Virus record (IMG/VR): IMGVR_UViG_3300042307_001176
Span: 62,001-126,000 of that record
DNA: 64,000 nucleotides
Reading direction: 5' to 3' (one strand)
DNA from: a virus
Both the position numbers and the translations under genes were made by a program. The notes beneath the pieces are model-generated. The model was given only the letters and a program-made list of their open reading frames with translations, was not told the origin of the DNA and ran no database searches. Below, piece by piece: positions 2,772 through 37,070 of this stretch (positions are counted from its first letter, which is position 1; each line of letters opens with the position of its first letter).

Positions 2772-2818
2772 CTAAATGGGTTTCTAACAATAAGATTAGG
2801 AACTTTAAAACATAATTG

Positions 2819-3694
2819 ATGAGGGAATTTAAGATTATCAATAGGATTACAAATACTACCGATAATATATCTAGATATTTTGCCGAAATAAGTAAGTACG
2901 AAATATTAACCCCAGAAAAAGAAGCAGAATTAGCAGTTAAATCAAAAAATGGAGATACTAAAGCTAAAGATCTTATATTAAAATCCAATTTAAGATTTGT
3001 CGTATCAGTTGCTAAAGCTTATTCTTCACCACAAAACCCTTTAGAGGACCTAATATCAGAAGGTAATAAAGGTCTAGTAGAAGCTATAGAAACATTTGAT
3101 CCTTCTACAGGTTTTAAATTTATTAGTTATGCTGTATGGCACATCCGAAAGAATATATTTCTGTATATGCAAAATAGTTCAAGATCAGTTAGAATACCGA
3201 CTAATGTAACACAGCAATTAAGGAAATATCAATCATTAGAGGAGAGCTTTATTTCTTATAACGGAAGAGAACCTTCAGTAGATGAGATGTTATTATTAAT
3301 AGAAGAAAACACAGATATCAAATTATCAGAATCAGCTATTGAGGCTATTAAAAATACACCGAGATCAATTCCTTTAGAAAGCAGTACAAATCCTAGCGAT
3401 GATGAATCGTTCAGTCCTATCAATTGGATAGAATCTGAAAATAGCACTGATAGTAATATAATAAGCGAGGATTTAAAAAAATCTATAGCAAGTATTCTTT
3501 CAGAGCTTAAACCAATGGAAAGGGAAATTACTATACTTAAATATGGACTAGGAGAAAATAAAGAACCACAAACATTTGGACAAATTGGTGAATCGTTTGA
3601 AAGAAGCCCAGAATGGGCTAGAGGCGTATCTAATATGGCTGAAAGAAGAATAAGGGCTATTATTAATCGAAGAAATTTAAAAGGAAGTATTTAG
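2819..3694 (+). CDS. Phage-encoded sigma-70 family factor (RpoD-like)
   Basis: The 291-residue protein starts MREFKIINRIT, close to the N-terminus usual in Bacteroidota RpoD (MRQLKITKSIT), which supports the ATG at 2819. Region 1.2 (ISRYFAEISKYEILTPEKE), region 2 (LKSNLRFVVSVAKAY, DLISEGNKGLVEAIETFD, GFKFISYAVWHIRKNI), region 3 (RIPTNVTQQLRKY) and a region 4 helix-turn-helix (ILKYGLGENKEPQTFGQIGE) are all visible. It should direct host RNA polymerase to a subset of phage promoters. It could be a late factor replacing T4 gp55, but the sequence does not show which promoters it uses. Confidence 0.93.
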   Translation: MREFKIINRITNTTDNISRYFAEISKYEILTPEKEAELAVKSKNGDTKAKDLILKSNLRFVVSVAKAYSSPQNPLEDLISEGNKGLVEAIETFDPSTGFKFISYAVWHIRKNIFLYMQNSSRSVRIPTNVTQQLRKYQSLEESFISYNGREPSVDEMLLLIEENTDIKLSESAIEAIKNTPRSIPLESSTNPSDDESFSPINWIESENSTDSNIISEDLKKSIASILSELKPMEREITILKYGLGENKEPQTFGQIGESFERSPEWARGVSNMAERRIRAIINRRNLKGSI

Positions 3695-9018: not shown

Positions 9019-9603
9019 TTATTTTTTATCTTTTCTATTAGCTTTAGCTTGCTTGTATAAAGCTTTATCACCCATCTTTGTTGTTTTACCTCCTGTTACA
9101 AAAGAATTAACTCTAGCCATTGCCCATTGTTGTGGTGTTGTTCCTGGAATATGACCTATTTTCCAAGCTGCATAACCCCTTTTCCATACCTGAGTTAATA
9201 TACCTTGGGGAAATCCAGTCTTATCTGATTTATTCTTTAGAGCTTTTTTTACTGGGCTACCAGCAGAAGTTACTCCCTCATTTAAGAATCCCTCAATTTC
9301 AAGGATCTCATCTTCTGATAAAGATTCTAATAAATCTATAAACTCATTTTCTATTTCTTCTAAGACACTCATGAATTGATAAGGGTCTGTCATTAAATTT
9401 TCCCCAAACATTTCTTTGTATTTTTTAGTGTATTTGCTTGTTTTGGTTTTTACTGGCTTACCCTTTCCTGCTTTGCGCGATTTATAATCAGCATCCCATG
9501 GACCATAAGCAGAAGAATCAGAATCATCTTTGCCACCATGTTTTTTTATCTCCCTTTTCATCACATTAGGATTAGTAGACAAGTATTTTTTTGGGTATTT
9601 CAT
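9019..9603 (-). CDS. Phage protein with a domain of unknown function (GTTPQQWAMARVNSF)
   Basis: The C-terminal half contains WKRGYAAWKIGHIPGTTPQQ then ARVNSFVTGGKT, a motif I have seen in uncharacterised phage and large-virus proteins (the DUF5824/DUF5872-type family; exact name uncertain). The N-terminus is basic (MKYPKKYLSTNP) and the middle is acidic and helical. It ends 2 bases from the convergent gene at 8685-9017. Function unknown, possibly virion-associated. Confidence 0.65.
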   Translation of the reverse strand: MKYPKKYLSTNPNVMKREIKKHGGKDDSDSSAYGPWDADYKSRKAGKGKPVKTKTSKYTKKYKEMFGENLMTDPYQFMSVLEEIENEFIDLLESLSEDEILEIEGFLNEGVTSAGSPVKKALKNKSDKTGFPQGILTQVWKRGYAAWKIGHIPGTTPQQWAMARVNSFVTGGKTTKMGDKALYKQAKANRKDKK

Positions 9604-9678: not shown

Positions 9679-10098
9679 ATGGAGTTCCAAAGGAGCAAAT
9701 ACAGCAGAAGAATTAGAAAGAAAAAGAGGGTCGGCGAATTCAGACAATATGGATTTTGTATTGATGTTTACTGTGGTCCAGATCCAGATGGAAAAATTGT
9801 AGATGAGATAATCAATATTGTCATATCTAGAGGAATGGATTGTACAGGTGGAGGTGATCAGGAGAAATACCAATTCTTTTTTGATAGTCTAAAAAACGAA
9901 TCAGATAAAGAATGGGTTTCTAATGAAATTAAAAAAATCGAGGAAGTAGAAGATGTAGTTTATTACGGAACTGTTGATGTGTGGCACGATGATGCAGATC
10001 AATATTTTGAAGAAGTCGATAAAATCAGAAAAGAATATGTCGAGAATTATTTAAAAAAACAAGAGGATGAGAAAACTAGCGACAATTCAGAAAATTAA
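9679..10098 (+). CDS. YggL-like 50S ribosome-binding protein
   Basis: The 139-residue protein begins with SRRIRKKKRVGEFRQYGFCI, closely matching the RRLRKKxHxxEFQELGF start of Escherichia coli YggL (DUF469). It also keeps the C-terminal VDVWHDD that parallels VDVWW. YggL binds the 50S subunit, so this may tune host ribosomes during infection. The C-terminal 40 residues are an acidic extension absent from YggL. It overlaps the RNA ligase gene by 32 bases and is preceded by a Bacteroidota-type promoter. Confidence 0.75.
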   Translation: MEFQRSKYSRRIRKKKRVGEFRQYGFCIDVYCGPDPDGKIVDEIINIVISRGMDCTGGGDQEKYQFFFDSLKNESDKEWVSNEIKKIEEVEDVVYYGTVDVWHDDADQYFEEVDKIRKEYVENYLKKQEDEKTSDNSEN

Positions 10099-11086
10099 AG
10101 AAATCCTTCCAATTGAAGGAGCAGATGCTATTGAGTTAGCAATTGTAAACGGATGGAAAGTAGTAGTGGGAAAAAACGTAGAACACAAAGAAGGTGATTA
10201 TGTTATTTACTGTGAGATTGATTCGTTTCTTCCTATAAAAGAAGAATTTGAATTTCTTAGAAAGTCATCATATAAAAAAATGGCAGATGGCACTGAGGGA
10301 TTCAGATTGAGAACAATTAAACTTAGAGGACAAGTTTCTCAAGGTCTAATTATTCCTATAAATGTTCTTATGAGATATAAGAATTTTCAAGTTGAATTTG
10401 AAGAAGGATCTGACGTATCTGAAATTTTAGGTGTCGTTAAATATGAACCACCTATACCTGCAGAGTTATCTGGAATAGCTAAAGGATTATTTCCTGGATT
10501 CATTCCAAAGACTGATGAGGAAAGGATTCAGAATCTTTCTGAAGTATTTGAGACATGGAAAGAAGAACATAAATTCTATGTGACAGAAAAGCTAGACGGA
10601 AGTTCTGCTACATACTATTACAAAGATGGAGAATTTGGAGTATGCTCTAGAAACTTAGAGCTTTTAGAAACTGAAGGAAATTCATTCTGGAAAGTTGCAA
10701 GAAATCTAGATCTAGAGAACAAAATGAAATCTTTAGGATACAATGTGTGTTTCCAAGGTGAATTAATTGGCGAGGGTATACAAGGTAATCCTTATAAAAT
10801 ATTAGGACAGACGGTTAAGTTCTTTAATGTGTTCAATATTGACACCCGTGAATATGTGGGATTAACAGAATTTGTTAATACTATTCATGGATTAGGACTT
10901 GATACTGTACCTAAGATTGAAACAGAATTTACTTTACCAGATACAATAGAGGATCTTTTATCTTATGCAGATGAAAAATCTTCATTAAATTCAAACTTTG
11001 ATCGAGAAGGCGTAGTTATAAGAAGTATAGACAGAACAATATCATTTAAAGTGATTAGTAATAAATTCCTACTGAATGAAAAATAG
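10067..11086 (+). CDS. RNA ligase of the DRB0094/Rnl5 family
   Basis: Nucleotidyltransferase motif I is EKLDGSS with the adenylated lysine at residue 175. Motif III-like FQGELIGEGI, motif IV REGVVIR and motif V SFKVIS follow in order. The 160-residue N-terminal part (KEGDYVIYCEIDSFLP, LRTIKLRGQVSQGLI) is the OB-like domain placed before the catalytic domain in Deinococcus Rnl5 (339 aa fits that family). Such enzymes seal 3'-OH/5'-phosphate nicks with an RNA 3' end. Overlaps YggL upstream and the AAA gene downstream, so one operon. Confidence 0.9.
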   Translation: MRKLATIQKIKEILPIEGADAIELAIVNGWKVVVGKNVEHKEGDYVIYCEIDSFLPIKEEFEFLRKSSYKKMADGTEGFRLRTIKLRGQVSQGLIIPINVLMRYKNFQVEFEEGSDVSEILGVVKYEPPIPAELSGIAKGLFPGFIPKTDEERIQNLSEVFETWKEEHKFYVTEKLDGSSATYYYKDGEFGVCSRNLELLETEGNSFWKVARNLDLENKMKSLGYNVCFQGELIGEGIQGNPYKILGQTVKFFNVFNIDTREYVGLTEFVNTIHGLGLDTVPKIETEFTLPDTIEDLLSYADEKSSLNSNFDREGVVIRSIDRTISFKVISNKFLLNEK

Positions 11087-12083
11087 AAAAGTTCCAAAAA
11101 ATAATGTGGAGGTTACGGAAAGAATAAACAATTTAATTAATATAAATAGAAAAATGAGAGATAGACACATATCATTTGAGGATGATGATTTAGAATCAAT
11201 AGACACGCAAAAACACACACAATGGTCAGTATTACAAAGTGGTCAATTTGCTCCATCTTATGTTTCAATATCACAAGTACCTTCTGGGCTTTATGAAATG
11301 AAATGGAATAGTTCATTACAGACTTGGGTTATTGCTAAGCAAGCTTTAAATATTGATGAACTTTACGAGCTTCCATCGCCAGAGATTGAAAGCATTCTAA
11401 GTGATATAAAAATATTCTGGAGAAAAAGAGAAACCTATAGGGAGTATAACTTCGTACACAAAAGGGGTATTTTACTTTACGGAGATCCTGGGTGTGGTAA
11501 ATCTGGAATTATACAGCTTTGCGTTAAAAACCTAATAGAGGAAGAGAATGGTATTGTTATTAATATCAAAGAAGATGAGGATTTTAAAGCATTTGTTGAA
11601 ATGGTTCCCACTATAAGATCTATTGAACCAGAAAGACCTCTTATTGTAATACTAGAAGATATTGACTCATTAGCAGGGGAAGACAGATATTCAACAACAA
11701 AATTGCTTAATATTCTAGATGGGGTTAAGCAGATAGAAAATGTTGTTTATATAGCAACAACAAACTATCCGGAAAAACTACAAGAACGTATTACTAATCG
11801 TCCATCAAGATTTGATAGAAGATACGAGGTGCAAATGCCTTCAGGCGAAATTAGAGAAGCTTATATAAAAAATAAGCTTACTGACGAAGATCTTAAAAAA
11901 ATAGATATTAAAAAATGGATAGAGCTTACTGACGGAATGTCTCTTTCACACTTAAAAGAATTAGTAATTTCTGTTGTAGTAATGAGTAAAGACTTTGATG
12001 AATCAATTGCTACCCTTAATAGTATGGGAGAAAAACCTAAGGTTACAAGCAGGAAGAAATCTAAATTAGGATTTGGAAATTAA
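11076..12083 (+). CDS. AAA+ ATPase
   Basis: Walker A GDPGCGKS lies near residue 135, Walker B VILEDIDS near 190, sensor-1 IATTNYPE near 228, and an arginine finger in RPSRFDRR. The architecture (N-terminal about 120 residues plus one AAA module) resembles BCS1/FtsH-type ATPases without a protease domain. It is probably a protein or complex remodeller; the substrate is unknown. It overlaps the RNA ligase gene by 11 bases. Confidence 0.88.
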   Translation: MKNRKVPKNNVEVTERINNLININRKMRDRHISFEDDDLESIDTQKHTQWSVLQSGQFAPSYVSISQVPSGLYEMKWNSSLQTWVIAKQALNIDELYELPSPEIESILSDIKIFWRKRETYREYNFVHKRGILLYGDPGCGKSGIIQLCVKNLIEEENGIVINIKEDEDFKAFVEMVPTIRSIEPERPLIVILEDIDSLAGEDRYSTTKLLNILDGVKQIENVVYIATTNYPEKLQERITNRPSRFDRRYEVQMPSGEIREAYIKNKLTDEDLKKIDIKKWIELTDGMSLSHLKELVISVVVMSKDFDESIATLNSMGEKPKVTSRKKSKLGFGN

Positions 12084-22515: not shown

Positions 22516-22761
22516 ATGGATTTAAAAAATTATCTAAACATCTACGAAGAAGACACACAGTCTCTCAAAAAAGCAATCGTTAAAAAAGGCGTAGGAGATA
22601 TGTCTTGGATGAAACACACATTTGTTCCTCTACAGAATGGAGATGAGATTTATCTTCATCCAGATCAAAGCGATGTGTCAGGACATTATCTAAAGATTAT
22701 ACATTCAGAAAATAAATGTATATCTGTTTTTAATAAAACATATTTTGAAATAGTAGATTAG
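22516..22761 (+). CDS. Small hypothetical protein, 81 aa
   Basis: Begins MDLKNYLNIYEEDTQSLKKA; probably a small beta barrel in the second half (NGDEIYLHPDQSDVSGHYLK). Overlaps the convergent flavoprotein gene by 4 bases. Confidence 0.6.
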   Translation: MDLKNYLNIYEEDTQSLKKAIVKKGVGDMSWMKHTFVPLQNGDEIYLHPDQSDVSGHYLKIIHSENKCISVFNKTYFEIVD

Positions 22762-23516
22762 AATTCGAAGAGTCTTTTAATACCTCTATAGCGATTTGAT
22801 AAAGACTCTTTTAATCTTGTAATTGAGATTTCAAATTCTCTACCAAAAACTTTAGGGGCTTCTTTGTAGGATTCTTGTGATTCGTCATTAGAATCTTGAG
22901 TGAATTGCCAATAGAAAGACATTTCTTCTGGTACATTAAATCCATAAAATTCATATACTTGCATTTGTGTCTCTAGAACTGTTTCTCCGTTCCAGTTTTG
23001 TCCTATAATAACACATCCTGCATCTATACCTTCTACAACGTTAATATCTTCCAGTGTTGTTTTTCTATTCTCTATCCAGTTTAATCTTTCAATTAGTTTC
23101 TGATAGAATGCGTTTGCTTGACCCCATCTAACACTTATAAAGAAAACTACCGCATCGGATTCAAAAAGTTCTTTAGTAACTTTCCAAAGTTCATCTTCCT
23201 TGTTATTAAGAGAAGCCCAGCATCTATGATTTCCTGATGGATCTTTTTCTTCGTCTTTTAGTTGTGCACCTTCTACACCACAATTATTACCTTCTACACC
23301 AGATACGTTACCTTCACAAGGAAATATTTTTAATTTAGGTATTTCCAATAGGACAACCTCAGTTGATTCCGCTAATTTTTTCTGTATATCCATTGCAAGA
23401 AGAGTAGACTTAGGTATCTCTTTACTCCCCTCCCATCTATTAGATGTGGTTAAAAATAGTACCTTCTTTTTACCAGAAAGATACTCCATTAATTTTTCTA
23501 ATTGTTCATTTGGCAT
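22758..23516 (-). CDS. NADPH-dependent FMN reductase / flavodoxin-fold protein
   Basis: The protein shows VLFLTTSNRWEGSKEIPKST, the phosphate-binding loop region of flavodoxin-fold FMN reductases, and FFISVRWGQANAFYQKLIER, the second FMN-contacting segment. The 252-residue length includes a Cys-containing insert around residues 65-95 (PCEGNVSG, RCWASLNN). It should be a cytoplasmic oxidoreductase, possibly a quinone or flavin reductase acting as an auxiliary metabolic gene. A TATATA-type motif lies 4-13 bases upstream of the start. Confidence 0.78.
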   Translation of the reverse strand: MPNEQLEKLMEYLSGKKKVLFLTTSNRWEGSKEIPKSTLLAMDIQKKLAESTEVVLLEIPKLKIFPCEGNVSGVEGNNCGVEGAQLKDEEKDPSGNHRCWASLNNKEDELWKVTKELFESDAVVFFISVRWGQANAFYQKLIERLNWIENRKTTLEDINVVEGIDAGCVIIGQNWNGETVLETQMQVYEFYGFNVPEEMSFYWQFTQDSNDESQESYKEAPKVFGREFEISITRLKESLSNRYRGIKRLFEF

Positions 23517-29540: not shown

Positions 29541-29630
29541 GGAGAGTTGCCAGAGCCAGGCTTAATGGATCAGTCTTGAAAACTGACGTAGCGAAAGTTA
29601 CCGGGGGTTCGAATCCCTCACTCTCCGCCA
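29541..29630 (+). tRNA. tRNA-Ser(TGA)
   Basis: Class II tRNA with acceptor GGAGAGT/ACTCTCC, anticodon loop CTTGAAA (TGA, reads UCA), a long variable arm, T loop TTCGAAT, and encoded CCA at 29628-29630. Confidence 0.93.
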
Positions 29631-29633
29631 ATT

Positions 29634-29707
<74 letters not shown>

Positions 29708-29874
29708 CACAAAGCCCTCTGCCTAGCGCTGGGTATGGATCGAAGATAGAATATGCCTCTACAACGTAGACAGTTAGAATATTTCGGTATTCTTTAATGA
29801 TATGCACACTTATTCTCTAAATCGTGGGTTAGCACAGTTTGTATGTTCTGGGGATATTTAAAGACATACAATTT
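29708..29874 (+). other. Unassigned 167-base spacer inside tRNA array A with hairpins
   Basis: No tRNA is recognised here. Two clear hairpins are present: AGAATA/TATTCT around a TTTCGG-like loop near 29778, and TTGTATGT/ACATACAA near 29848-29872. The minus-strand reading frame over it is a tRNA-antisense artefact. It may be a decayed tRNA or a separate small RNA. Confidence 0.4.
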
Positions 29875-29947
29875 CGGGATGTAGATCAGTTGGTAGATCG
29901 CCTGGTTTGGGACCAGGAGGCCGTCAGTTCGAGTCTGGCCATCCCGA
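29875..29947 (+). tRNA. tRNA-Pro(TGG)
   Basis: Acceptor CGGGATG/CATCCCG, anticodon stem CCTGG/CCAGG with loop TTTGGGA (TGG), discriminator A, T loop TTCGAGT. Confidence 0.93.
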
Positions 29948-29954
29948 CATCAAT

Positions 29955-30028
29955 AGAGGCGTAGCTCAATTGGTTAGAGCACATGCCTTATACGCATGCG
30001 GTCACGAGTTCGACTCTCGTCGTCTCTA
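29955..30028 (+). tRNA. tRNA-Ile(TAT)
   Basis: Acceptor AGAGGCG/CGTCTCT, anticodon stem CATGC/GCATG with loop CTTATAC (TAT, reads AUA). AUA is common in this AT-rich genome and occurs twice in leader peptide A. Confidence 0.9.
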
Positions 30029-30032
30029 CTTA

Positions 30033-30106
30033 GGTCCCTTAGCTCAGTAGGTTAGAGCAACTGACTCATAATCAGTAGGTCCACGGTTCGAGCCCGTGAG
30101 GGACCA
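30033..30106 (+). tRNA. tRNA-Met(CAT), elongator type
   Basis: Acceptor GGTCCCT/AGGGACC, anticodon stem ACTGA/TCAGT with loop CTCATAA (CAT). The stem lacks the three G:C pairs of an initiator. An Ile-CAT (lysidine) identity cannot be fully excluded. Confidence 0.88.
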
Positions 30107-30189
30107 CTAAATTTTAAAGTCTTTAGGAGAACAAAAGTTCATGCTGGTTCAGATCCAACCTCTTGTATTTTTTGGATATATAATAAATC
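30107..30189 (+). other. Possible decayed tRNA tail after array A
   Basis: CTGGTTCAGATCCAAC resembles a damaged T arm (GGTTCGAATCC form), without a recognisable anticodon arm upstream. A GATATATAATA promoter-like motif (from about 30174) leads into the gene at 30190. Confidence 0.3.
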
Positions 30190-30561
30190 ATGAATGATCA
30201 TATTAGAATATCCGGACTCGGTATAGAAATATACAAAAATGATATACCAGGAGTGAGATGGAATAAAGCTCAGACTTTTGCAGAATTTCTTAAAGATGGG
30301 TGGAGGTTGCCTACATTAAAAGAACTTGCTTTAATAAAAACACTAAGGGATGTTGGAGGCATAGGAAGATTTCCTGCGGAATATTCGGATTTTTCTGATT
30401 CATATTATTGGAGCGGAAAAGAAGGAGAAGCTGCCACTCTAAGAACTCAATTAAAAGACGGAAGTAGTAGTTATGCTTATTACTTTGATGTGGCTAAAGG
30501 AATTTCTTCACATAGTAAAAAAGCATACGATCTTAGGGTTAGGTTTGTCAGAGATATATAA
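30190..30561 (+). CDS. DUF1566/Lcl-type domain protein, 123 aa
   Basis: Contains GWRLPTLKELALIK, SYYWSGKEG and a C-terminal LRVRFVRDI, the WRLPT...YWS...VRxVR pattern of DUF1566 (Lcl C-terminal-like) domains, which fold like C-type lectins and occur in adhesins. It directly precedes two tail adhesin-like genes (30565 and 31422), so a virion or tail-tip role is likely. Confidence 0.72.
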   Translation: MNDHIRISGLGIEIYKNDIPGVRWNKAQTFAEFLKDGWRLPTLKELALIKTLRDVGGIGRFPAEYSDFSDSYYWSGKEGEAATLRTQLKDGSSSYAYYFDVAKGISSHSKKAYDLRVRFVRDI

Positions 30562-30564
30562 TGT

Positions 30565-31416
30565 ATGGCAACAACAAGACCTTTTTCGTATAATCCAACG
30601 CAATCAACAATTGCTGGAACTACTAATTTAGGTACCATATGTATAGGAGTATCTGATTTAGACTATGCTGCTAGCCCTGGAGGATTAACGTGGTGGATGG
30701 GACCGGATGAAGATAATTCTTATGTAGTATGCAAGGATGTACCAGCTCAAAATTTCCCTACTCCGTTAGGAAATATAGGCAATGTACAATTTTGGAGATG
30801 CACTAATACAGATTTAGCATTTAGAGATATGGTATCTACAATAAGTGGTACTACACAAGCATCGGCTTCAGCAGCTAGTGATTGGTTAGCATCTAATAAC
30901 TATTGGACTAACAGAAATCCATATCTTGCAGGTCTATATAAAACAACTTACTCTGGATATTTCGCAGATTCAGTTAGTTTCTTTGCAACTGCAACTCCTC
31001 AAGCATTTGGAACAAACCCAGCTACTTCTGTACAAACTACTGCAATATCAGAAGCAGCTAGTGGTGATGGTGATTATTTTAGTTGTCAATGGTTGGGTTA
31101 TTTCAGTCCGACTACTACTCAAACTTATACATTTTACACCAACTCGGATGATGCATCTTATGTGTGGGTTGGAGCAAATGCGATATCTGGATTTACTACA
31201 GCAAACGCAACAGTCAATAATGGAGGTGCTCATGGTCCTATAGAGGCATCAGGTTCTATAGATCTAACTGCAGGAGTTTATTATCCTATAAGAATTCAAT
31301 TCGGTGAAGCCGGCGGAGGTGATGTACTTACTTTCAATTATTCAACACCAACGATAGCAAAAACAACTAATGTAACAGGATTAGTTTTCTATAATACATC
31401 AACTAACGGATTCTAA
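30565..31416 (+). CDS. Tail adhesin-like protein with PA14 domain
   Basis: Residues 1-115 (MATTRPFSYNPTQSTIAGTT ... LTWWMGPDEDNSYVV) are shared with the next gene. Residues about 115-275 form a PA14-type carbohydrate-binding beta barrel (YFSCQWLGYFSPTTTQTYTF, NSDDASYVWVGA, YYPIRIQFGE). Likely a distal tail or fibre protein binding host glycans. First of a tandem family; a third copy survives only as fragments at 32438-32517. Confidence 0.8.
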   Translation: MATTRPFSYNPTQSTIAGTTNLGTICIGVSDLDYAASPGGLTWWMGPDEDNSYVVCKDVPAQNFPTPLGNIGNVQFWRCTNTDLAFRDMVSTISGTTQASASAASDWLASNNYWTNRNPYLAGLYKTTYSGYFADSVSFFATATPQAFGTNPATSVQTTAISEAASGDGDYFSCQWLGYFSPTTTQTYTFYTNSDDASYVWVGANAISGFTTANATVNNGGAHGPIEASGSIDLTAGVYYPIRIQFGEAGGGDVLTFNYSTPTIAKTTNVTGLVFYNTSTNGF

Positions 31417-31421
31417 AACAT

Positions 31422-32198
31422 ATGGCAACAACAAGAGCATTTTCATATAATCCAACACAATCAACAATTGCGGGAACTACGAATGTGGGTACTCTATGTA
31501 TAGGTGTATCTCCTTTAGCATATAGTACTAACCCTGGTGGATTAACCTGGTGGATGGGACCAGACGAAGATAATTCTTACGTGATAGCTAAGGATGTATC
31601 AGCTGGAAATTTTCCCACTCCTGTAGGGAACGTAGGTAATGTACAATTTTGGAGATGCACTAATACGGATTTAGCATTTAAAGATTTAGTATCTATAATA
31701 AGTGGTACTGCACAAGCATCGGCTTCAGCAGCTAAATCATGGCTAACAACAAATAATTATTGGACTAATTATACCAGTGGTGTAACTTTCTCTCGCCCTT
31801 TCGTTAATGGTATTGCACCAGGAGCTACCACAGAAACTGCTTGGAATACATTCAGAGCAGCATTAACGGGATCTTATACACAATTTGTTATATCAAATTC
31901 ATTAGGATTTAGTCTAACCGTAAGCCATGCTACTTCGGTCCAAACTTTGGCAGATGCTTTAAAAAATGCAACAAGCAATACCTCAGTAACTATAAACAGC
32001 GTAGTTTGGAGAGTGGGAACAGCTTGTGGAACTCCTTCTATTGGTGGAGTTGCTGTTGAATTTTCTAATGTAGGAAGCTGTACTGGATCAAGTACTATAG
32101 CATTTAGACCTATGATTAATAACTTAAACTGGGGAGGTATGGGTACAGGGTCTACTGTAAGCCAGGCTTCTCAAACAATGACACTAACATTTAGCTAA
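31422..32198 (+). CDS. Tail adhesin-like protein, paralogue of the preceding gene
   Basis: The N-terminal 115 residues closely match the previous gene, while the C-terminal half differs (Ser/Thr/Gly-rich, with VVWRVGTACGTPSIGGVAVE). Shared attachment end plus different tip is typical of exchangeable host-range proteins. Its stop overlaps the ATG of the small gene at 32198. Confidence 0.72.
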   Translation: MATTRAFSYNPTQSTIAGTTNVGTLCIGVSPLAYSTNPGGLTWWMGPDEDNSYVIAKDVSAGNFPTPVGNVGNVQFWRCTNTDLAFKDLVSIISGTAQASASAAKSWLTTNNYWTNYTSGVTFSRPFVNGIAPGATTETAWNTFRAALTGSYTQFVISNSLGFSLTVSHATSVQTLADALKNATSNTSVTINSVVWRVGTACGTPSIGGVAVEFSNVGSCTGSSTIAFRPMINNLNWGGMGTGSTVSQASQTMTLTFS

Positions 32199-32359
32199 TG
32201 GAAAATTATAGAATAATGAATATAACAGTAACACCATATATTGTTGTTCCTGGTAAAGAATCGCTAACTCTAGAAGAATGCATATTGTGGATAAATGAAA
32301 ACGGAGGAGATTGTCCTTTATGTAATTACACCATACAGCCATCGGAACATAATATATAG
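32198..32359 (+). CDS. Small protein with CPLC motif, 53 aa
   Basis: Starts in a TAATG overlap with the adhesin gene (MENYRIMNITVTPYIVVPG) and ends HNI. Contains CPLC near residue 39, plus one earlier Cys. Possibly a beta-rich virion accessory protein. No family known. Confidence 0.55.
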   Translation: MENYRIMNITVTPYIVVPGKESLTLEECILWINENGGDCPLCNYTIQPSEHNI

Positions 32360-32362
32360 TCA

Positions 32363-32372
32363 GATATATAAG
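32363..32372 (+). promoter_or_regulatory. TATATA late-promoter-like motif (duplicated)
   Basis: GATATATAAG immediately before the chimeric ORF at 32375. The same motif with about 70 following bases is repeated at 32631. Confidence 0.45.
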
Positions 32373-32374
32373 TA

Positions 32375-32473
32375 ATGAAAACATTTAAAGATTTTATTTA
32401 CGAAAAAATTAATGAAGACACATTATCGTATAGGGGATTAGTTTTCTATAATACATCAACTAACGGATTTTAA
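32375..32473 (+). pseudogene. Chimeric ORF: packaged-protein leader fused to adhesin C-terminus
   Basis: Twenty-one codons identical to the start of the gene at 32643 (MKTFKDFIYEKINEDTLSYR) run in frame into VFYNTSTNGF, the end of the adhesin at 30565. The junction falls at a shared GGATTA. It is intact as a 32-residue frame but is most simply a recombination scar. Confidence 0.65.
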
Positions 32474-32478
32474 AACAT

Positions 32479-32517
32479 ATGGCAACAACAAGAGAATTTG
32501 CATATAATTTACAATAA
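32479..32517 (+). pseudogene. Remnant start of a third adhesin copy
   Basis: Twelve codons MATTREFAYNLQ then stop match the shared start MATTRxFxYNPTQ of the two adhesins. The 37 bases before it also match the intergenic DNA between those genes. The rest of the copy has been deleted. Confidence 0.6.
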
Positions 32518-32545
32518 ATTAAATAAATAGAGAATATTAAAAATT

Positions 32546-32629
32546 AGGCAAAGTAACCACAAACCCACTGGTAATAGGCAGTTCTTGAGATGGAATGCAA
32601 TATAAAACGTAAGTCCTGCTTTGCCTTTT
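32546..32629 (+). ncRNA. Structured intergenic RNA of unknown type
   Basis: AGGCAAAG (32546-32553) pairs over 8 bases with CTTTGCCT (32619-32626), followed by TTTT. The enclosed 65 bases contain GTTCTTGAGATGGAATGCAA, similar to a segment at 40910-40929. It does not carry the GCGG/TAC motifs of the Ro60-linked RNAs. It may be a small RNA, a riboswitch-like element or an elaborate terminator. Confidence 0.45.
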
Positions 32630-32630
32630 A

Positions 32631-32640
32631 GATATATAAG
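32631..32640 (+). promoter_or_regulatory. TATATA late-promoter-like motif
   Basis: GATATATAAG two bases before the ATG at 32643; second copy of the motif at 32363. Confidence 0.45.
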
Positions 32641-32642
32641 TA

Positions 32643-33227
32643 ATGAAAACATTTAAAGATTTTATTTACGAAAAAATTAATGAAGACACATTATCGTATA
32701 GGGGATTAAAATTTAATTTTAATTCAACTATCGATGGGTATGTTAAAGTAAAAGAAGATGATCCAACTATATCATTTGATAGTGAAACCTCGTTTGATAA
32801 ACTTATAATAACCGATCCTCGTGAATTCTTTAACTTTAGATATGATAATGAAAAGGATAATAAGAACTTATCTTCTATTGATTCAGAAAATGTTCTTAGA
32901 ATTAGAATTGGATCTAAAGATTTTAAGGGAAGATCCGGCGGGGTTACTCATGTATCTGTAAGAGTCCCTGAAAATTTTGACTATAATAAATTTCAATTAG
33001 AGTTACCTAATATAAAGATAGCGCTTACAGATAGAACTGAAGTAGACAGAGTTATTAAAGAAGTTGAGGCTCTTGTAACTAAATGTGCAGGGGAAGAACC
33101 TAATGCGTATTCAGATAATAAACCAGATTACAGACAGGACATCGTAAATTTTATTAAATCTATAGAAGAAAAGCTAGGTAAAGAAGATACCAAAAGAATA
33201 TTTATTGATATTATTAATAAATTGTAA
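32643..33227 (+). CDS. Protein with strongest capsid-targeting-like leader, 194 aa
   Basis: The leader MKTFKDFIYEKINED is nearly superimposable on the T4 internal-protein targeting sequence MKTYQEFIAEA. The body is beta-rich (LRIRIGSKDFKGRSGGVTHV) with a helical C-terminus (DIVNFIKSIEEKLGKED). No known family. Its first 70 bases are duplicated at 32375. Confidence 0.7.
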   Translation: MKTFKDFIYEKINEDTLSYRGLKFNFNSTIDGYVKVKEDDPTISFDSETSFDKLIITDPREFFNFRYDNEKDNKNLSSIDSENVLRIRIGSKDFKGRSGGVTHVSVRVPENFDYNKFQLELPNIKIALTDRTEVDRVIKEVEALVTKCAGEEPNAYSDNKPDYRQDIVNFIKSIEEKLGKEDTKRIFIDIINKL

Positions 33228-33248
33228 AATTTAATTTACATAGATAAG

Positions 33249-33258
33249 AATATATAAA
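33249..33258 (+). promoter_or_regulatory. TATATA late-promoter-like motif
   Basis: AATATATAAA ends 7 bases before the ATG at 33266. Confidence 0.45.
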
Positions 33259-33265
33259 ATAAAAA

Positions 33266-33544
33266 ATGAAACATCTTAAAAAATATCAATCTAATAATTC
33301 AGAAATTAACGAAGGATTTTGGGATTCTCTTTTTGGCAAACCCACTGTTGATGATGCTGCTCATGACCAAATGAGAGGTCAAGGATGGAGCCACAGAGGT
33401 AAAGACGAAGAAAATTATATCATGTTTCAAGGACAAAAGTTCTATCCAGAACAGATCCAATATGATGATGCTTATTCAACTAAACAAATACCAAGAGTTG
33501 AAGGTGGTATGCTAATCGTAGCTAACCCAGCTTGGAATTTATAA
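33266..33544 (+). CDS. Small protein with capsid-targeting-like leader, 92 aa
   Basis: Leader MKHLKKYQSNNSEINEG is followed by FWDSLFGKP and a compact region rich in aromatic residues. INE after the leader fits a gp21-type cleavage site. Unknown function; inferred packaged protein. Confidence 0.65.
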   Translation: MKHLKKYQSNNSEINEGFWDSLFGKPTVDDAAHDQMRGQGWSHRGKDEENYIMFQGQKFYPEQIQYDDAYSTKQIPRVEGGMLIVANPAWNL

Positions 33545-33568
33545 TAAAAATAAAAAAATATCAGAAAT

Positions 33569-33601
33569 CGTTTTTTAATGAGAAACTTTTCTGTACATTT
33601 G
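33569..33601 (+). promoter_or_regulatory. Promoter of tRNA array B
   Basis: CGTTTTTTAA at 33569 and TACATTTG at 33594, 25 bases apart, form the shared promoter type. Leader ORF B starts 33 bases after the -7 element. Confidence 0.7.
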
Positions 33602-33633
33602 GAGTATATAATAAAAAAGGAACAAAACTTTCA

Positions 33634-33723
33634 ATGAAACACTTTTTAAATATCGCAACAGATTTTCAACTTCGTAAAGAGGATGACCTTCTAGAGGATA
33701 GATTTAAGTGTCAGAGGAAATAA
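33634..33723 (+). CDS. Leader peptide B (29 aa) controlling tRNA array B
   Basis: The ORF begins MKHFLNIATDF and contains seven consecutive codons EDDLLED (33679-33699; GAG GAT GAC CTT CTA GAG GAT). Array B encodes Glu(TTC), Asp(GTC), Leu(TAG) and the initiator tRNA. Leu codons CTT and CTA are those read by the encoded Leu tRNA. The stop TAA (33721-33723) lies in the antiterminator strand, as in leader A. Confidence 0.7.
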   Translation: MKHFLNIATDFQLRKEDDLLEDRFKCQRK

Positions 33724-33773
33724 ATTTATATAATGATATAATTTAAACCTCTGATAACCTCAGAGGTTTTTTT
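33711..33773 (+). promoter_or_regulatory. Transcription attenuator B
   Basis: TCAGAGG (33711-33717) plus TAAATT (33721-33726) pair with AATTTA (33740-33745) plus CCTCTGA (33748-33754), sequestering the terminator 5' arm. An earlier CCTTCT (leader Leu codons) can pair with AGAGG as a protector with one bulge. Translation state would choose between the structures. Confidence 0.65.
33745..33773 (+). terminator. Attenuator terminator B
   Basis: AAACCTCTG (33745-33753) pairs perfectly with CAGAGGTTT (33761-33769), followed by further T residues. It stands before the tRNA array and nine bases before boxA. Confidence 0.85.
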
Positions 33774-33781
33774 GTTTTATA

Positions 33782-33795
33782 CGCTCTTTGAAATT
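33782..33795 (+). promoter_or_regulatory. boxA-like site before tRNA array B
   Basis: CGCTCTTTGAAATT keeps the GCTCTTT core of boxA but diverges at the 3' end (GAAAT instead of GACAT). Same position as at arrays A and C. Confidence 0.55.
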
Positions 33796-33797
33796 AC

Positions 33798-33869
33798 GCT
33801 GCCATCGTCTAACGGTTAGGACCTATGGTTTTCATCCATAAAATCGGAGTTCGATTCTCCGTGGCAGTA
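33798..33869 (+). tRNA. tRNA-Glu(TTC)
   Basis: Acceptor GCTGCCA/TGGCAGT, anticodon stem TATGG/CCATA with loop TTTTCAT (TTC), T arm CGGAGTTCGATTCTCCG. Confidence 0.92.
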
Positions 33870-33880
33870 CAAAAAATTAA

Positions 33881-33955
33881 GGTCCCGTAGTTAAACGGCT
33901 ATAATGCTGCCCTGTCACGGCAGAGTTCGGAGTTCGATTCTCCGCGGGACCGCCA
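33881..33955 (+). tRNA. tRNA-Asp(GTC)
   Basis: Acceptor GGTCCCG/CGGGACC, anticodon stem CTGCC/GGCAG with loop CTGTCAC (GTC), discriminator G, encoded CCA at 33953-33955. Confidence 0.93.
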
Positions 33956-33963
33956 AATTATAT

Positions 33964-34036
<73 letters not shown>

Positions 34037-34040
34037 CTAA

Positions 34041-34121
34041 GCCCAGGTGGTGAAATGGTATACACGCTAGTCTTAGAAATTAGTGACGTAAGTCGTGAGG
34101 GTTCGAGTCCCTCCCTAGGTA
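34041..34121 (+). tRNA. tRNA-Leu(TAG)
   Basis: Class II tRNA; acceptor GCCCAGG/CCTAGGT has one mismatch. Anticodon stem CTAGT/ATTAG with loop CTTAGAA (TAG, reads CUN). The HAD gene starts three bases after its discriminator. Confidence 0.85.
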
Positions 34122-34123
34122 CT

Positions 34124-34693
34124 ATGAAAATTATATTTTTAGATCATGACGGTGTAATTTGTCTTTCCCAACAATTTGGAGGACGTTACAAAAAGCAGGC
34201 TAAAGCTAGAAAAAAGCTTTCTCAGGATCTGATGACTTTTCCTGTTGGAGCTAGGTTTGATAATTTTGATAAGAAAGCAATAAAGGTTTTAAATACAATC
34301 TTAGAAGAAACAGGAGCTGAAATAGTGGTTTCTTCAGATTGGAAAAACTGGGCAACTGTAGAAGAAATGGGTGAATACTATAAAGAGCAAGGAATTATTA
34401 AAACTCCTATAGATTTCACTCCTAGAGAATACACGTTACCAGAGAAACAAGAATGGCATCCAGATTGGGATTTAGAAGCATCAAGAACTTTAGAAATCCA
34501 AGAATGGTTGAAAGATCATCCAGAAGTCTCTCATTGGGTAGCAATAGATGATTTGGATATGAGTTTTAAAGAAGTATCTTCTAATAGAAGCGGTACCGGA
34601 TGGGGATTAATAAATTTCGTACACACTCCAAGCCTTAATGAAGGTATTAAAAAATGTGGAATTAAAGAAAAAGTTTTAAAATTTTTAAAATAA
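34124..34693 (+). CDS. HAD-like phosphatase of the RNA-repair (SAK) type
   Basis: ATG 34124 is used because the frame upstream overlaps tRNA-Leu. Motif I is FLDHDGVI, motif II IVVSSDWKNW, and a late acidic motif AIDDLDMSF, as in the HAD family found in 'Swiss army knife' RNA-repair proteins. WLKDHPEVSHWVAIDD fits its C-terminal half. It may act on RNA 3' or 5' phosphates before ligation. DHD in motif I (rather than DxD) keeps both Asp positions. Immediately follows tRNA array B. Confidence 0.75.
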   Translation: MKIIFLDHDGVICLSQQFGGRYKKQAKARKKLSQDLMTFPVGARFDNFDKKAIKVLNTILEETGAEIVVSSDWKNWATVEEMGEYYKEQGIIKTPIDFTPREYTLPEKQEWHPDWDLEASRTLEIQEWLKDHPEVSHWVAIDDLDMSFKEVSSNRSGTGWGLINFVHTPSLNEGIKKCGIKEKVLKFLK

Positions 34694-34703
34694 TTTAAGA
34701 AAT

Positions 34704-34737
34704 CATTTTTTTATCCCGTTACATTTGGTTATCTTTG
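34704..34737 (+). promoter_or_regulatory. Bacteroidota-type promoter (T-run / TATCTTTG)
   Basis: CATTTTTTTA at 34704 and TATCTTTG at 34730, 26 bases apart. Drives the gene at 34791. Confidence 0.7.
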
Positions 34738-34790
34738 TAATATAAATTAACAAACTTTATTTACAATTTACAATTTACAAAAAACCTATT

Positions 34791-35168
34791 ATGAAAAATC
34801 AAAAATTAAAAAGAGTTACTATGAGTGTATCTCACGAGAATCCTGATGCACAGGTAAATTTTAAATCAATCGGAATTGGAAAAGATCAAAGAGAAGCAGC
34901 TATTTTTGCTTTAGGATCTTTCTTAAATGTTATAGATGGAGTAAGCCAAGAAGGTATATCAGATTACAACGAAGCTTTGGAAATGGTTAATGCTCAATAT
35001 TCGGAAGCTGAAATAGTATCATTTACTGAAACCCAATTGGAAAGGGCAAAAGATGCTTTTATTACTACTTACGAAACAACTAAAGTTGATTATGTTTGGG
35101 ACGAAGTAGAAGATGGAATGGCTTTGGGCTTGATCGAAGGATTAGAAATAATCGAAGAGGAATATTAA
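34791..35168 (+). CDS. Hypothetical acidic protein, 125 aa
   Basis: Begins MKNQKLKRVTMSVSHENPDA and is helical and acidic after residue 40. No domain is recognised. It has its own shared-type promoter and lies between tRNA arrays B and C. Confidence 0.68.
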   Translation: MKNQKLKRVTMSVSHENPDAQVNFKSIGIGKDQREAAIFALGSFLNVIDGVSQEGISDYNEALEMVNAQYSEAEIVSFTETQLERAKDAFITTYETTKVDYVWDEVEDGMALGLIEGLEIIEEEY

Positions 35169-35182
35169 AAAATATCAAAAAA

Positions 35183-35216
35183 CATCTTTTTATTCAAAAA
35201 AGATATTGTACTTTTG
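35183..35216 (+). promoter_or_regulatory. Promoter of tRNA array C
   Basis: CATCTTTTTA at 35183 and TACTTTTG at 35209, 26 bases apart. Leader ORF C starts 39 bases after the -7 element. Confidence 0.72.
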
Positions 35217-35254
35217 CGAAACTATTCTGGAAACAGGATATATAATTAAGAAAA

Positions 35255-35362
35255 ATGAAAAACTGTAGTAAACATAACATCAATCGCATGATCAGTCAGA
35301 TTAATGGCTGCTATCAAACGGTGGCGTTTTGGGCAAAGGGGAAAGAACCCGATCGAAGCTAA
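35255..35362 (+). CDS. Leader peptide C (35 aa) controlling tRNA array C
   Basis: The ORF begins MKNCSKHNINRMISQINGCY and ends WAKGKEPDRS. It contains all sixteen amino acids whose tRNAs are encoded in array C (F K W R C S I V N Y G A M H T Q) and no Leu. Ser is AGT/AGC and the first Arg is CGC, the codons read by the encoded Ser(GCT) and Arg(ACG). Only E, P and D, near the end, lack a tRNA in this array. This composition is hard to explain by chance. Confidence 0.72.
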   Translation: MKNCSKHNINRMISQINGCYQTVAFWAKGKEPDRS

Positions 35363-35424
35363 TACAGGAAATCATATTTAGATATTTTGGAAAAGGCTTT
35401 GATTCACATCAAAGCCTTTTTTTT
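35351..35424 (+). promoter_or_regulatory. Transcription attenuator C
   Basis: GATCGAAGC (35351-35359), ending just before the leader stop, pairs with GCTTTGATT (35396-35404) over nine bases with G-U pairs, disrupting the terminator 5' arm. No protector helix is as clear as in leader A. Confidence 0.55.
35391..35424 (+). terminator. Attenuator terminator C
   Basis: AAAAGGCTTTG pairs with CAAAGCCTTTT around loop ATTCACAT, followed by more T residues; runs directly into boxA. Confidence 0.88.
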
Positions 35425-35437
35425 GTTCTTTGACATA
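35424..35437 (+). promoter_or_regulatory. boxA-like site before tRNA array C
   Basis: TGTTCTTTGACATA, identical to the array A site over 13 bases, lies 11 bases before tRNA-Phe. Confidence 0.7.
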
Positions 35438-35448
35438 CTGGAAAAAAT

Positions 35449-35521
35449 GGTACCGTAGCTCAGTCGGTAGAGCACTAGACTGAAAATCTAGGTGTCGCCG
35501 GTTCGATTCCGGCCGGTACCA
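35449..35521 (+). tRNA. tRNA-Phe(GAA)
   Basis: Acceptor GGTACCG/CGGTACC, anticodon stem CTAGA/TCTAG with loop CTGAAAA (GAA), discriminator A. Confidence 0.94.
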
Positions 35522-35531
35522 CAATTAAAAT

Positions 35532-35604
35532 GATCTCGTAGCTCAGCTGGTAGAGCACCGCACTTTTAATGCGGGAGTCGAGGGTTCGAGCCCCTCCGGG
35601 ATCA
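35532..35604 (+). tRNA. tRNA-Lys(TTT)
   Basis: Acceptor GATCTCG/CGGGATC, anticodon stem CCGCA/TGCGG with loop CTTTTAA (TTT), T arm GAGGGTTCGAGCCCCTC. Confidence 0.93.
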
Positions 35605-35610
35605 CTACAC

Positions 35611-35683
35611 ACATCAGTAGCTCAATTGGTAGAGTGTTGGTCTCCAAAACCAAAGGTTGTAGGTTCGATTCCTACCTGGTGTG
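35611..35683 (+). tRNA. tRNA-Trp(CCA)
   Basis: Acceptor ACATCAG/CTGGTGT, anticodon stem TTGGT/ACCAA with loop CTCCAAA (CCA), discriminator G as expected for Trp. Confidence 0.93.
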
Positions 35684-35689
35684 CTAAAA

Positions 35690-35762
35690 GGCTCTGTAGT
35701 TCAAGGGATTAGAATGGATCACTACGGATGATCTGATCCTGGTTCGAATCCAGGTGGAGTCT
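35690..35762 (+). tRNA. tRNA-Arg(ACG)
   Basis: Acceptor GGCTCTG/TGGAGTC (several G-U pairs), anticodon stem GATCA/TGATC with loop CTACGGA (ACG, reads CGN after A-to-I editing). Discriminator U is unusual for Arg. Confidence 0.82.
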
Positions 35763-35773
35763 CAAACAAATAG

Positions 35774-35844
35774 GGTCGTGTGGTCGAGTGGTTAGGCACT
35801 AGTCTGCAAAACTAGTTATACTGGTTCAATTCCAGTCACGACCT
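35774..35844 (+). tRNA. tRNA-Cys(GCA)
   Basis: Acceptor GGTCGTG/CACGACC, anticodon stem CTAGT/ACTAG with loop CTGCAAA (GCA), discriminator U typical for Cys. Confidence 0.93.
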
Positions 35845-35861
35845 CAAAAAAATTTAAAAAT

Positions 35862-35999
35862 ATGATGATAGAAAGTAAAATAGTAGCCAGAGGAAGTTTC
35901 CCCTCAAGCAGAGAAAACTTAAGAAGAGAAACATTAAAATTTAATAGAGCCAAAATATTGATCGGAAGAATTAAAAGACTAATTAACAAAGGAAAGTAA
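35862..35999 (+). CDS. Small basic protein inside tRNA array C, 45 aa
   Basis: The frame starts MMIESKIVARGSFPSSRENL and ends KRLINKGK. It is strongly basic with alternating Arg/Lys, suggesting RNA binding. Its last three codons overlap the acceptor stem of tRNA-Ser(GCT). The only protein gene within the array; start context is typical, but the overlap makes it less certain. Confidence 0.5.
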   Translation: MMIESKIVARGSFPSSRENLRRETLKFNRAKILIGRIKRLINKGK

Positions 36000-36076
36000 T
36001 CTCAGATGGTGACGGGGCTCGCCTGCTAAGCGAAGCGTACCTTAATTGGTATTTGGTTCGATTCCAATTCTTTCCG
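35991..36076 (+). tRNA. tRNA-Ser(GCT)
   Basis: Class II tRNA: acceptor GGAAAGT/TCTTTCC (one mismatch), anticodon loop CTGCTAA (GCT, reads AGC/AGU), long variable arm CGTACCTTAATTGGTAT, discriminator G. T stem has one mismatch. Confidence 0.82.
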
Positions 36077-36082
36077 CAACAT

Positions 36083-36159
36083 TGACATATAGCTCAGTTG
36101 GTTAGAGCGTTGATCTGATACGTCAAAGGCCGAAGGTTCGAATCCTTCTATGTCAACCA
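36083..36159 (+). tRNA. tRNA-Ile(GAT)
   Basis: Acceptor TGACATA/TATGTCA, anticodon stem TTGAT/GTCAA with loop CTGATAC (GAT), encoded CCA at 36157-36159. Confidence 0.93.
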
Positions 36160-36164
36160 CATTT

Positions 36165-36237
36165 AGTCTCTTAGCTCAGTTGGCAGAGCGTTTGGTTTAC
36201 ATCCAAAATGTCGGGGGTTCGAATCCCTCAGGGACTA
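36165..36237 (+). tRNA. tRNA-Val(TAC)
   Basis: Acceptor AGTCTCT/AGGGACT, anticodon stem TTTGG/CCAAA with loop TTTACAT (TAC). Confidence 0.93.
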
Positions 36238-36239
36238 CA

Positions 36240-36321
36240 AGATTAGAAGCGGCGAATGGGGTTACTTCTCAGAACTTTTAAATTTGACCAAAAAACACCT
36301 CGCTCAAATATTCTCTAATCT
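36240..36321 (+). ncRNA. Structured RNA 4, candidate Y-like RNA within tRNA array C
   Basis: P1 pairs AGATTAGA (36240) with TCTAATCT (36314). AGCGG follows, then P2 GCGA..GGGGT (36252-36262) pairs with ACACCTCGC (36295-36303, one mismatch and a two-base bulge), with TACTTC after the 5' strand and TCAAATATTC before P1'. It is the same design as the three RNAs upstream of Ro60, 10 kb away, and shares TAAATTTG in its loop with RNA 3. Confidence 0.75.
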
Positions 36322-36326
36322 AAACT

Positions 36327-36398
36327 GGGGATGTAGCTCAGCGGTAGAGCTCTCGACTGTTAATCGATAGGTCGCTGGTTCGAATCCAGCCTTCCCCG
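36327..36398 (+). tRNA. tRNA-Asn(GTT)
   Basis: Acceptor GGGGATG/CTTCCCC (one mismatch), anticodon loop CTGTTAA (GTT) on stem TCGA/TCGA, discriminator G. Confidence 0.9.
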
Positions 36399-36403
36399 CA
36401 ATT

Positions 36404-36485
36404 CGGAGTGTTGAGCAATTGGCTGCTCAGCTGACTGTAAATCAGCCGCCTTAAGGCATTGGGGGTTCGAATCCCTCCGCTCCGA
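36404..36485 (+). tRNA. tRNA-Tyr(GTA)
   Basis: Class II tRNA: acceptor CGGAGTG/CGCTCCG, anticodon stem GCTGA/TCAGC with loop CTGTAAA (GTA), long variable arm, discriminator A. Confidence 0.92.
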
Positions 36486-36506
36486 CACAGTGTATCTGTA
36501 AGATAT

Positions 36507-36558
36507 AGAGACGGACAGTCCGACGGTTGAAGTGGATGCGTAATTCCACACGTCTCTA
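36507..36558 (+). other. Minimal tRNA-like element, unclassified
   Basis: A perfect 7-base acceptor-like stem AGAGACG/CGTCTCT with a following A encloses only 37 bases, containing one T-arm-like hairpin GTGGA/TCCAC. Normal D and anticodon arms are missing. It sits between tRNA-Tyr and tRNA-Gly in the same transcript. It could be a decayed tRNA or a processing decoy. Confidence 0.45.
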
Positions 36559-36561
36559 AAT

Positions 36562-36637
36562 GCGATAGTAGCTCAGTTGGTAGAGCACCGTCCTTCCAAG
36601 TCGGGGGTCGCAGGTTCGAATCCTGTCTATCGCTCCA
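36562..36637 (+). tRNA. tRNA-Gly(TCC)
   Basis: Acceptor GCGATAG/CTATCGC, anticodon loop CTTCCAA (TCC), discriminator U as usual for Gly, encoded CCA at 36635-36637. Anticodon stem has one mismatch. Confidence 0.9.
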
Positions 36638-36638
36638 C

Positions 36639-36711
36639 GGGGTAGTAGCTCAATTGGCTGAGCGCTTCCTTTGCAAGGAAGAGGATGTGGGTTCAAGTCC
36701 CATCTACTCCA
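36639..36711 (+). tRNA. tRNA-Ala(TGC)
   Basis: Acceptor GGGGTAG/CTACTCC, anticodon stem CTTCC/GGAAG with loop TTTGCAA (TGC), discriminator A. Confidence 0.93.
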
Positions 36712-36718
36712 CTTATAT

Positions 36719-36791
36719 GGCGAGTTAGCTCAGTTGGTAGAGCGTTGGAATCATACCCCAAAGGTCGGCAGTTCGAACCTGCCACTCGCTA
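36719..36791 (+). tRNA. tRNA with CAT anticodon (Met or Ile-lysidine)
   Basis: Acceptor GGCGAGT/ACTCGCT, anticodon loop ATCATAC (CAT). Third CAT tRNA of the window; the stem has one A-C mismatch next to the loop. Identity as elongator Met or Ile2 cannot be fixed by eye. Confidence 0.85.
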
Positions 36792-36793
36792 CT

Positions 36794-36870
36794 GTGACGG
36801 TAGCTCAGTTGGTTAGAGCGTCTGATTGTGGTTCAGAAGGTCGGGGGTTCGATTCCCCTCTGTCACCCCA
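36794..36870 (+). tRNA. tRNA-His(GTG)
   Basis: Acceptor GTGACGG/CTGTCAC, anticodon stem TCTGA/TCAGA with loop TTGTGGT (GTG), discriminator C typical for His, encoded CCA. Confidence 0.92.
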
Positions 36871-36871
36871 T

Positions 36872-36944
36872 GCCTTTGTAGCTCAGTTGGTAGAGCACTT
36901 CACTTGTAATGAAGATGTCGCAGGTTCAATCCCTGTCAAAGGCT
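36872..36944 (+). tRNA. tRNA-Thr(TGT)
   Basis: Acceptor GCCTTTG/CAAAGGC, anticodon stem CTTCA/TGAAG with loop CTTGTAA (TGT). Confidence 0.93.
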
Positions 36945-36950
36945 CTAAAT

Positions 36951-37023
36951 TGTCCTGTGGTGTAATTGGCAACACGTCTGGTTTTGGACCAGAAGAGTCC
37001 AGGTTCGAGCCCTGGCGGGACAT
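36951..37023 (+). tRNA. tRNA-Gln(TTG)
   Basis: Acceptor TGTCCTG/CGGGACA, anticodon stem TCTGG/CCAGA with loop TTTTGGA (TTG). Last tRNA of array C. Confidence 0.92.
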
Positions 37024-37070
37024 CTAAAAAATAAGATAAATAGATTGACCAGTGTGTAAAAAATGTAGTT

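Follow-up and report, generated by a model that had tools for sequence, protein, structure and literature searches.

What does a protein of the YggL family do in a phage, and does the RNA ligase encoded beside it take part in that function? The gene lies in a 64-kb stretch of DNA (the window) out of a 154,411-bp virus record (genome G000, to which contigs L061, L062, and L063 also belong), where it overlaps the ligase start by 32 nt on the same strand:

9679..10098, + strand: gene for a YggL-family (PF04320) protein of 139 aa, identified by ATG start, Pfam match, AF2 model, and dN/dS
10067..11086, + strand: RNA ligase of the DRB0094 type (TIGR02306, 200.5 bits, cut-off 151.15; Pfam PHA02142 OB fold and RNA_ligase), a neighbour not counted in the system

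Judged from its sequence, the window ORF is genuinely of the YggL (DUF469) family, though diverged and adapted to the phage. The original prediction had recognized a YggL-type N-terminus in this ORF, and this is borne out: the coordinates are exact, and the protein matches Pfam PF04320 (YggL_50S_bp) over profile positions 1–102 of 102 (31.9 bits, E = 2.6e-7; curated cut-off 27), with RRIRKKKRVGEF at residues 10–21. On the NCBIfam YggL equivalog PRK11702, it scores 26.3 bits, below the cut-off of 115 bits, and it is thus a family member far from the level of an orthologue. Three further IMG/VR contigs, L002, L010, and L011 (genomes G001, G002, and G003, respectively), carry a phage yggL; the encoded proteins are 80, 69, and 47% identical to the window protein and score 37.0, 34.4, and 44.1 bits with PF04320, all above the cut-off. 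Among the ORFs of the loci examined, a profile built from the four phage proteins only retrieves bacterial YggL from Rheinheimera (E ~1e-13), Pseudomonas (5e-10), and E. coli (9e-6), and a profile–profile comparison of phage with bacterial YggL gives a probability of 98.2 (E = 4.8e-14). A chance match through the basic stretch is ruled out by a profile without the basic N-terminus, which still retrieves Rheinheimera YggL (E = 6e-6) and no non-YggL protein. The motif (S-)RR-x-x-KK...EF...GF is invariant in 14 phage and bacterial sequences, and the phage proteins have a GG-D hairpin in common with YggL of Rheinheimera and Pseudomonas. Among the phage relatives, the gene is under purifying selection (dN/dS 0.15–0.21 where computable).

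The AF2 model of the phage protein (pLDDT 83, pTM 0.70) comprises a basic N-terminal helix (residues 10–17), a ferredoxin-like b-a-b-b-a-b core (24–100), and a long C-terminal helix (106–137). A model from bacterial YggL alone, of modest confidence (pLDDT 65), shows the same b-a-b-b-a-b order when compared by order of elements rather than by superposition. The N-terminal 25 residues have a net charge of +8, and the remainder of the protein is acidic. A Foldseek search of the PDB with the phage model returned generic ferredoxin-like folds only (bS6, ACT, and NikR; TM <0.5 by query length), and a sequence search of the PDB for a YggL chain or a YggL–ribosome structure found none.

Compared with cellular YggL, the phage protein differs in its identity of only about 25–35% and in the helix from residue 106, which is common to the phage proteins and forms the only real extension past the end of the Pfam family. 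E. coli YggL (b2959, PF04320, IPR007416, "putative ribosome assembly factor") is alike in the RR-x-x-KK...EF...GF motif, a VD-x-W end, and the b-a-b-b-a-b fold; its gene adjoins trmB, whereas the phage yggL does not. The nearest cellular relatives found are those of Rheinheimera (L037–L046), with 33–35% identity overall and as much as 40% in the N-terminal half, which have the motifs GEFTEYGF and AGGGD in common with the phage protein. Unlike the latter, they are products of a single chromosomal gene of 112 aa that ends at the family boundary.

The original prediction knew of no phage members. One, NVP2058O_105 of Vibrio phage 2.058.O, is already annotated as DUF469/IPR007416, and a diverged YggL is present in Salmonella phage Munch (CPT_Munch_333), Klebsiella phage fENko-Kae01, and their kin (PF04320, 26 bits, E = 2e-5). 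Homologues of this diverged gene were found in 68 phage records. These annotated homologues surfaced only with E. coli YggL as the query; tblastn of the window protein against annotated phages gave no match. NVP2058O_105 and CPT_Munch_333 resemble the window protein in being phage-borne and in their N-terminal YggL motif, but they belong to another diverged lineage with proteobacterial hosts and score just below the cut-off (25.8–26.1 bits). The homologues in the 121Q, XbC2, and BF jumbo phages have no PF04320 match on their own, so that their kinship rests on Munch_333. Three records retrieved with the E. coli query at 95–96% identity (OR845408, AGRM01000002, and OR851124) look like bacterial chromosomal DNA and were set aside, as were L012 and L013, which hold Pseudomonas-like host yggL genes at prophage ends.

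In the window and its relatives, yggL lies between two conserved boundary genes and behind a candidate promoter:

9019..9603, − strand: DUF5824 protein, divergent, left-hand slot boundary (Pfam, 58.4 bits); also in L002, L010, L011, and L020
9626..9663, + strand: candidate phage promoter AAAACATTTTTTTA-N16-TATCTTTA, 53 nt before the yggL ATG, probably of an early class
11076..12083, + strand: AAA ATPase, right-hand slot boundary (Pfam AAA, 57 bits); same boundary in L002, L010, and L020

The DUF5824 protein is 82–94% identical in L002, L010, and L011. A further gene, ORF2, encodes a conserved phage protein family of ~180 aa found in ~18 viral contigs and in the huge phage LR756500; it has no Pfam match and no clear PHROG match, and its strongly conserved C-terminal motif reads DPTDGDFS...HWWIQDEAVIIIADYI.

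L010 5359–5907, L002 5356–5889, L011 5317–5895: ORF2; also in L018–L036

The content between the boundaries changes from genome to genome. In L010, yggL is followed by ORF2, a PRPP-synthetase-like gene, a macro-domain-like gene, the ligase, and AAA; in L002 by ORF2, a 26-residue ligase stub, and AAA, with yggL retained and the ligase deleted; and in L011 by ORF2, a PRPP-synthetase-like gene, one gene of no named family, macro, YqeY, and NADAR. L020 reads DUF5824, promoter, ORF2, one gene of no named family, and AAA, without yggL and without ligase, and a search for YggL throughout this 206-kb record found none. As yggL is missing from 13 of the 17 searched records of such phages, many of which are fragments, it appears dispensable. 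The space between the DUF5824 and AAA genes is a variable slot, and yggL is therefore an optional cassette. Beyond the right-hand boundary, the window encodes a phage glycosyltransferase (12073–12972) that scores above the cut-off for autotransporter O-heptosyltransferases (TIGR04414, 216 vs. 200 bits) and is missing at the corresponding place in L002.

The promoter belongs to a class with the consensus AAATCATTTTTTTA-N16-TAnnTTTR, of which 144 kb of G000 contain 12 sites at two or fewer mismatches, as opposed to none in five order-2 Markov simulations. The same element with identical N16 spacing precedes yggL in L002, L010, and L011, and in L020 it stands directly before ORF2, with no yggL between. 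Further copies are located in the window (34700–34737 and 35179–35216) and in L061, L062, and L063. Genes behind this class include those for a phage sigma-70 factor, a NADAR protein, and a DNA ligase, and for PTH2 in relatives. What is new at this locus is the status of yggL as an accessory cassette, with a phage promoter of a repeated class in front of it. The right half of the element equals the Bacteroidota −7 element TANNTTTG (PMC6847099), and the repeated motif looks like a Bacteroidota-type early promoter set; given this consensus, yggL is probably made early by the host RNA polymerase. The phage genome encodes two separate sigma-70-like factors, at window 2816–3694 and L062 7116–7979.

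Shine–Dalgarno motifs precede a fraction of 0.04 of the genes, below the 0.12 expected by chance. Tenacibaculum phage PTm1 is alike in this respect (0.06), unlike T4 (0.53), Munch, and Vibrio phage 2.058, and the best named relatives of the terminase include Tenacibaculum phages. Because of the promoter −7 element, the scarce Shine–Dalgarno sites, and the kinship of the terminase, the host is very probably a bacterium of the Bacteroidota. By contrast, the YggL family has been described from many gamma- and betaproteobacteria (PMC8058203). PF04320 was found in E. coli only among 14 control genomes and in just five of the 274 genomes sampled from the class to which Rheinheimera belongs. In a short-pattern scan, as distinct from a census, of 84,980 species genomes, the phage profile met gammaproteobacterial relatives only (ten loci, of which eight bear the name Rheinheimera). 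The phage might have brought in a ribosome factor family absent from its host, expressing it early to remodel or mark the host 50S for phage use. We put this forward tentatively and would sooner expect it to be wrong; if true, a foreign 50S maturation factor would serve as a takeover tool.

What the protein may do is suggested by its family. The original prediction held that the family binds the 50S subunit, in agreement with its best-studied member, E. coli YggL, which co-sediments with 50S and 70S and whose deletion alters 50S levels (PMC8058203); E. coli YggL is the only member for which this association is known, and the bacterial function is itself putative. By homology, phage YggL probably binds the host 50S too. 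The context is one of translation, with 24 tRNAs in the window and, in relatives, PTH2 and YqeY genes close to yggL. In our proposal, certain T4-like phages, probably infecting Bacteroidota, have the gene as an optional cassette, and one copy of a repeated promoter of few members drives its transcription, probably early and by the host RNA polymerase. The basic N-terminal helix, together with the conserved GGxD hairpin on the ferredoxin-like domain, would bind the large ribosomal subunit of the host, where the protein would most likely act like YggL, as a factor in late 50S maturation or in subunit association. During infection, it would thereby tune how host ribosomes are supplied or behave; neither the RNA ligase downstream nor the acidic tail at the terminus would play a part. 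We infer both the early timing and the consequence for translation; the whole account, an early YggL-family protein that modulates the maturation or use of the host 50S, is in our estimate evenly balanced between right and wrong.

A precedent for such a role is phiKZ014 of Pseudomonas phage phiKZ, which binds the host 50S early in infection (PMC10914614). Similar to the role that we infer for the window protein, phiKZ014 acts early on the host 50S and has a basic N-terminus; it differs in being much larger, in binding 5S rRNA, and in having no detectable homology to phage YggL, and its family (PHROG 16056; PMC10914614) is not among the PHROG matches of the window protein. Only a few phage proteins are known to bind the host 50S, all of them recent finds such as phiKZ014, and YggL is without a settled function. 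A diverged phage YggL, selected in a host lineage that is probably without YggL, would be a natural variant with which to find the key residues, and could also show what 50S binding buys a phage. If it binds Bacteroidota ribosomes, it would offer a way into the study of how phages take over translation in hosts that skip Shine–Dalgarno sites.

The protein could instead have kept the fold and left the ribosome, using its basic N-terminus to bind another RNA (phage mRNA, tRNA, or a processing intermediate). With an identity this low to cellular YggL, the binding surface could have drifted, and the surroundings fit such a role: genes with RNA or nucleotide functions (RNA ligase, PTH2, Prs, and macro) are found near yggL in the relatives, and the window contains 24 tRNAs. 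Against this, the retained residues (RR..KK...EF...GF and GG-D) are those common to bacterial YggL, an argument that the ancestral partner has been kept, and we consider binding to another RNA unlikely, though the strongest of the alternatives. The tRNAs form an array at window 29541–37024, and none was found elsewhere in the four 20-kb flanking stretches searched. A PTH2-type peptidyl-tRNA hydrolase is encoded behind the same promoter class in L010 (1238–1645, − strand) and G003 (22585–22989, − strand), and was not found in G000.

YggL could also be one half of a two-part system with ORF2, of which the window would retain only YggL. ORF2 is conserved and begins within or right after the 3′ end of yggL in all three yggL-bearing relatives, which speaks for a pair. 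Yet ORF2 occurs without yggL in 13 records, and a search for ORF2 in the genome of the window found it missing there, so that each is kept alone; a joint system is thus improbable. Still less probable is a role as a virion component, as suggested by the label "virion structural protein" of phrog_16130, which is matched by NVP2058O_105 as well as by Munch_333 (E = 8e-35), the latter also being a PF04320 match. The window protein itself has no match to phrog_16130. In the five jumbo phages examined (of the 121Q/RaK2 kind), the gene is part of a conserved nucleotide-metabolism run (nrdB-x-x-YggL-mazG) rather than a structural block, and the promoter class of the window group is common to sigma factor, NADAR, and PTH2 genes. 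Possibly the label is mistaken; traces of a ribosome-bound protein in virion preparations would account for it.

The original prediction further drew attention to an acidic C-terminal extension. An acidic stretch does exist (residues 105–139, net charge −6), but a functional role of its last ~15 residues is not supported:

10033..10098, + strand: deletion junction in the last ~15 yggL codons, with the end of ORF2 (LKKQ) followed by the out-of-frame start of the ligase (DEKTSDNSEN)

At the DNA level, window 10033–10143 aligns with the ORF2 end and the ligase start/stub of L002. In L010, the same out-of-frame ligase overlap closes the macro-domain-like gene, reading DEKTSNDSEN. YggL of L002, L010, and L011 terminates without these residues, and ~125–139 are unique to the window protein. 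As ORF2 supplies LKKQ and the ligase start, read in another frame, supplies DEKTSDNSEN, we interpret this segment as a deletion scar plus overlap reading and reject the acidic tail as a functional domain.

The remaining proposal, also from the original prediction, is that YggL recruits the ligase encoded next to it to ribosomes; in this model, the acidic tail would serve for docking. The 32-nt overlap of the two genes on one strand of the window speaks for it, but it is hardly tenable, given that G001 has lost the ligase by deletion, that three genes separate the two in G002, that in G003 the ligase lies on the opposite strand at a distance of ~14 kb, that the end of the tail is a scar found in the window alone, and that the ligase is 94% identical between the window and L010 while YggL is 69% identical. 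The RNA ligase beside yggL looks like an accidental neighbour rather than a part of its function.

The relatives display one further feature around yggL, a cluster of PRPP-synthetase-like, macro-domain-like, and NADAR genes (L010 5882–7565 and L011 5885–9072), which possibly constitutes a phage set for NAD+/ADP-ribose handling. In G000, the NADAR gene (L063 10842–11333) is located behind the same promoter class as yggL.
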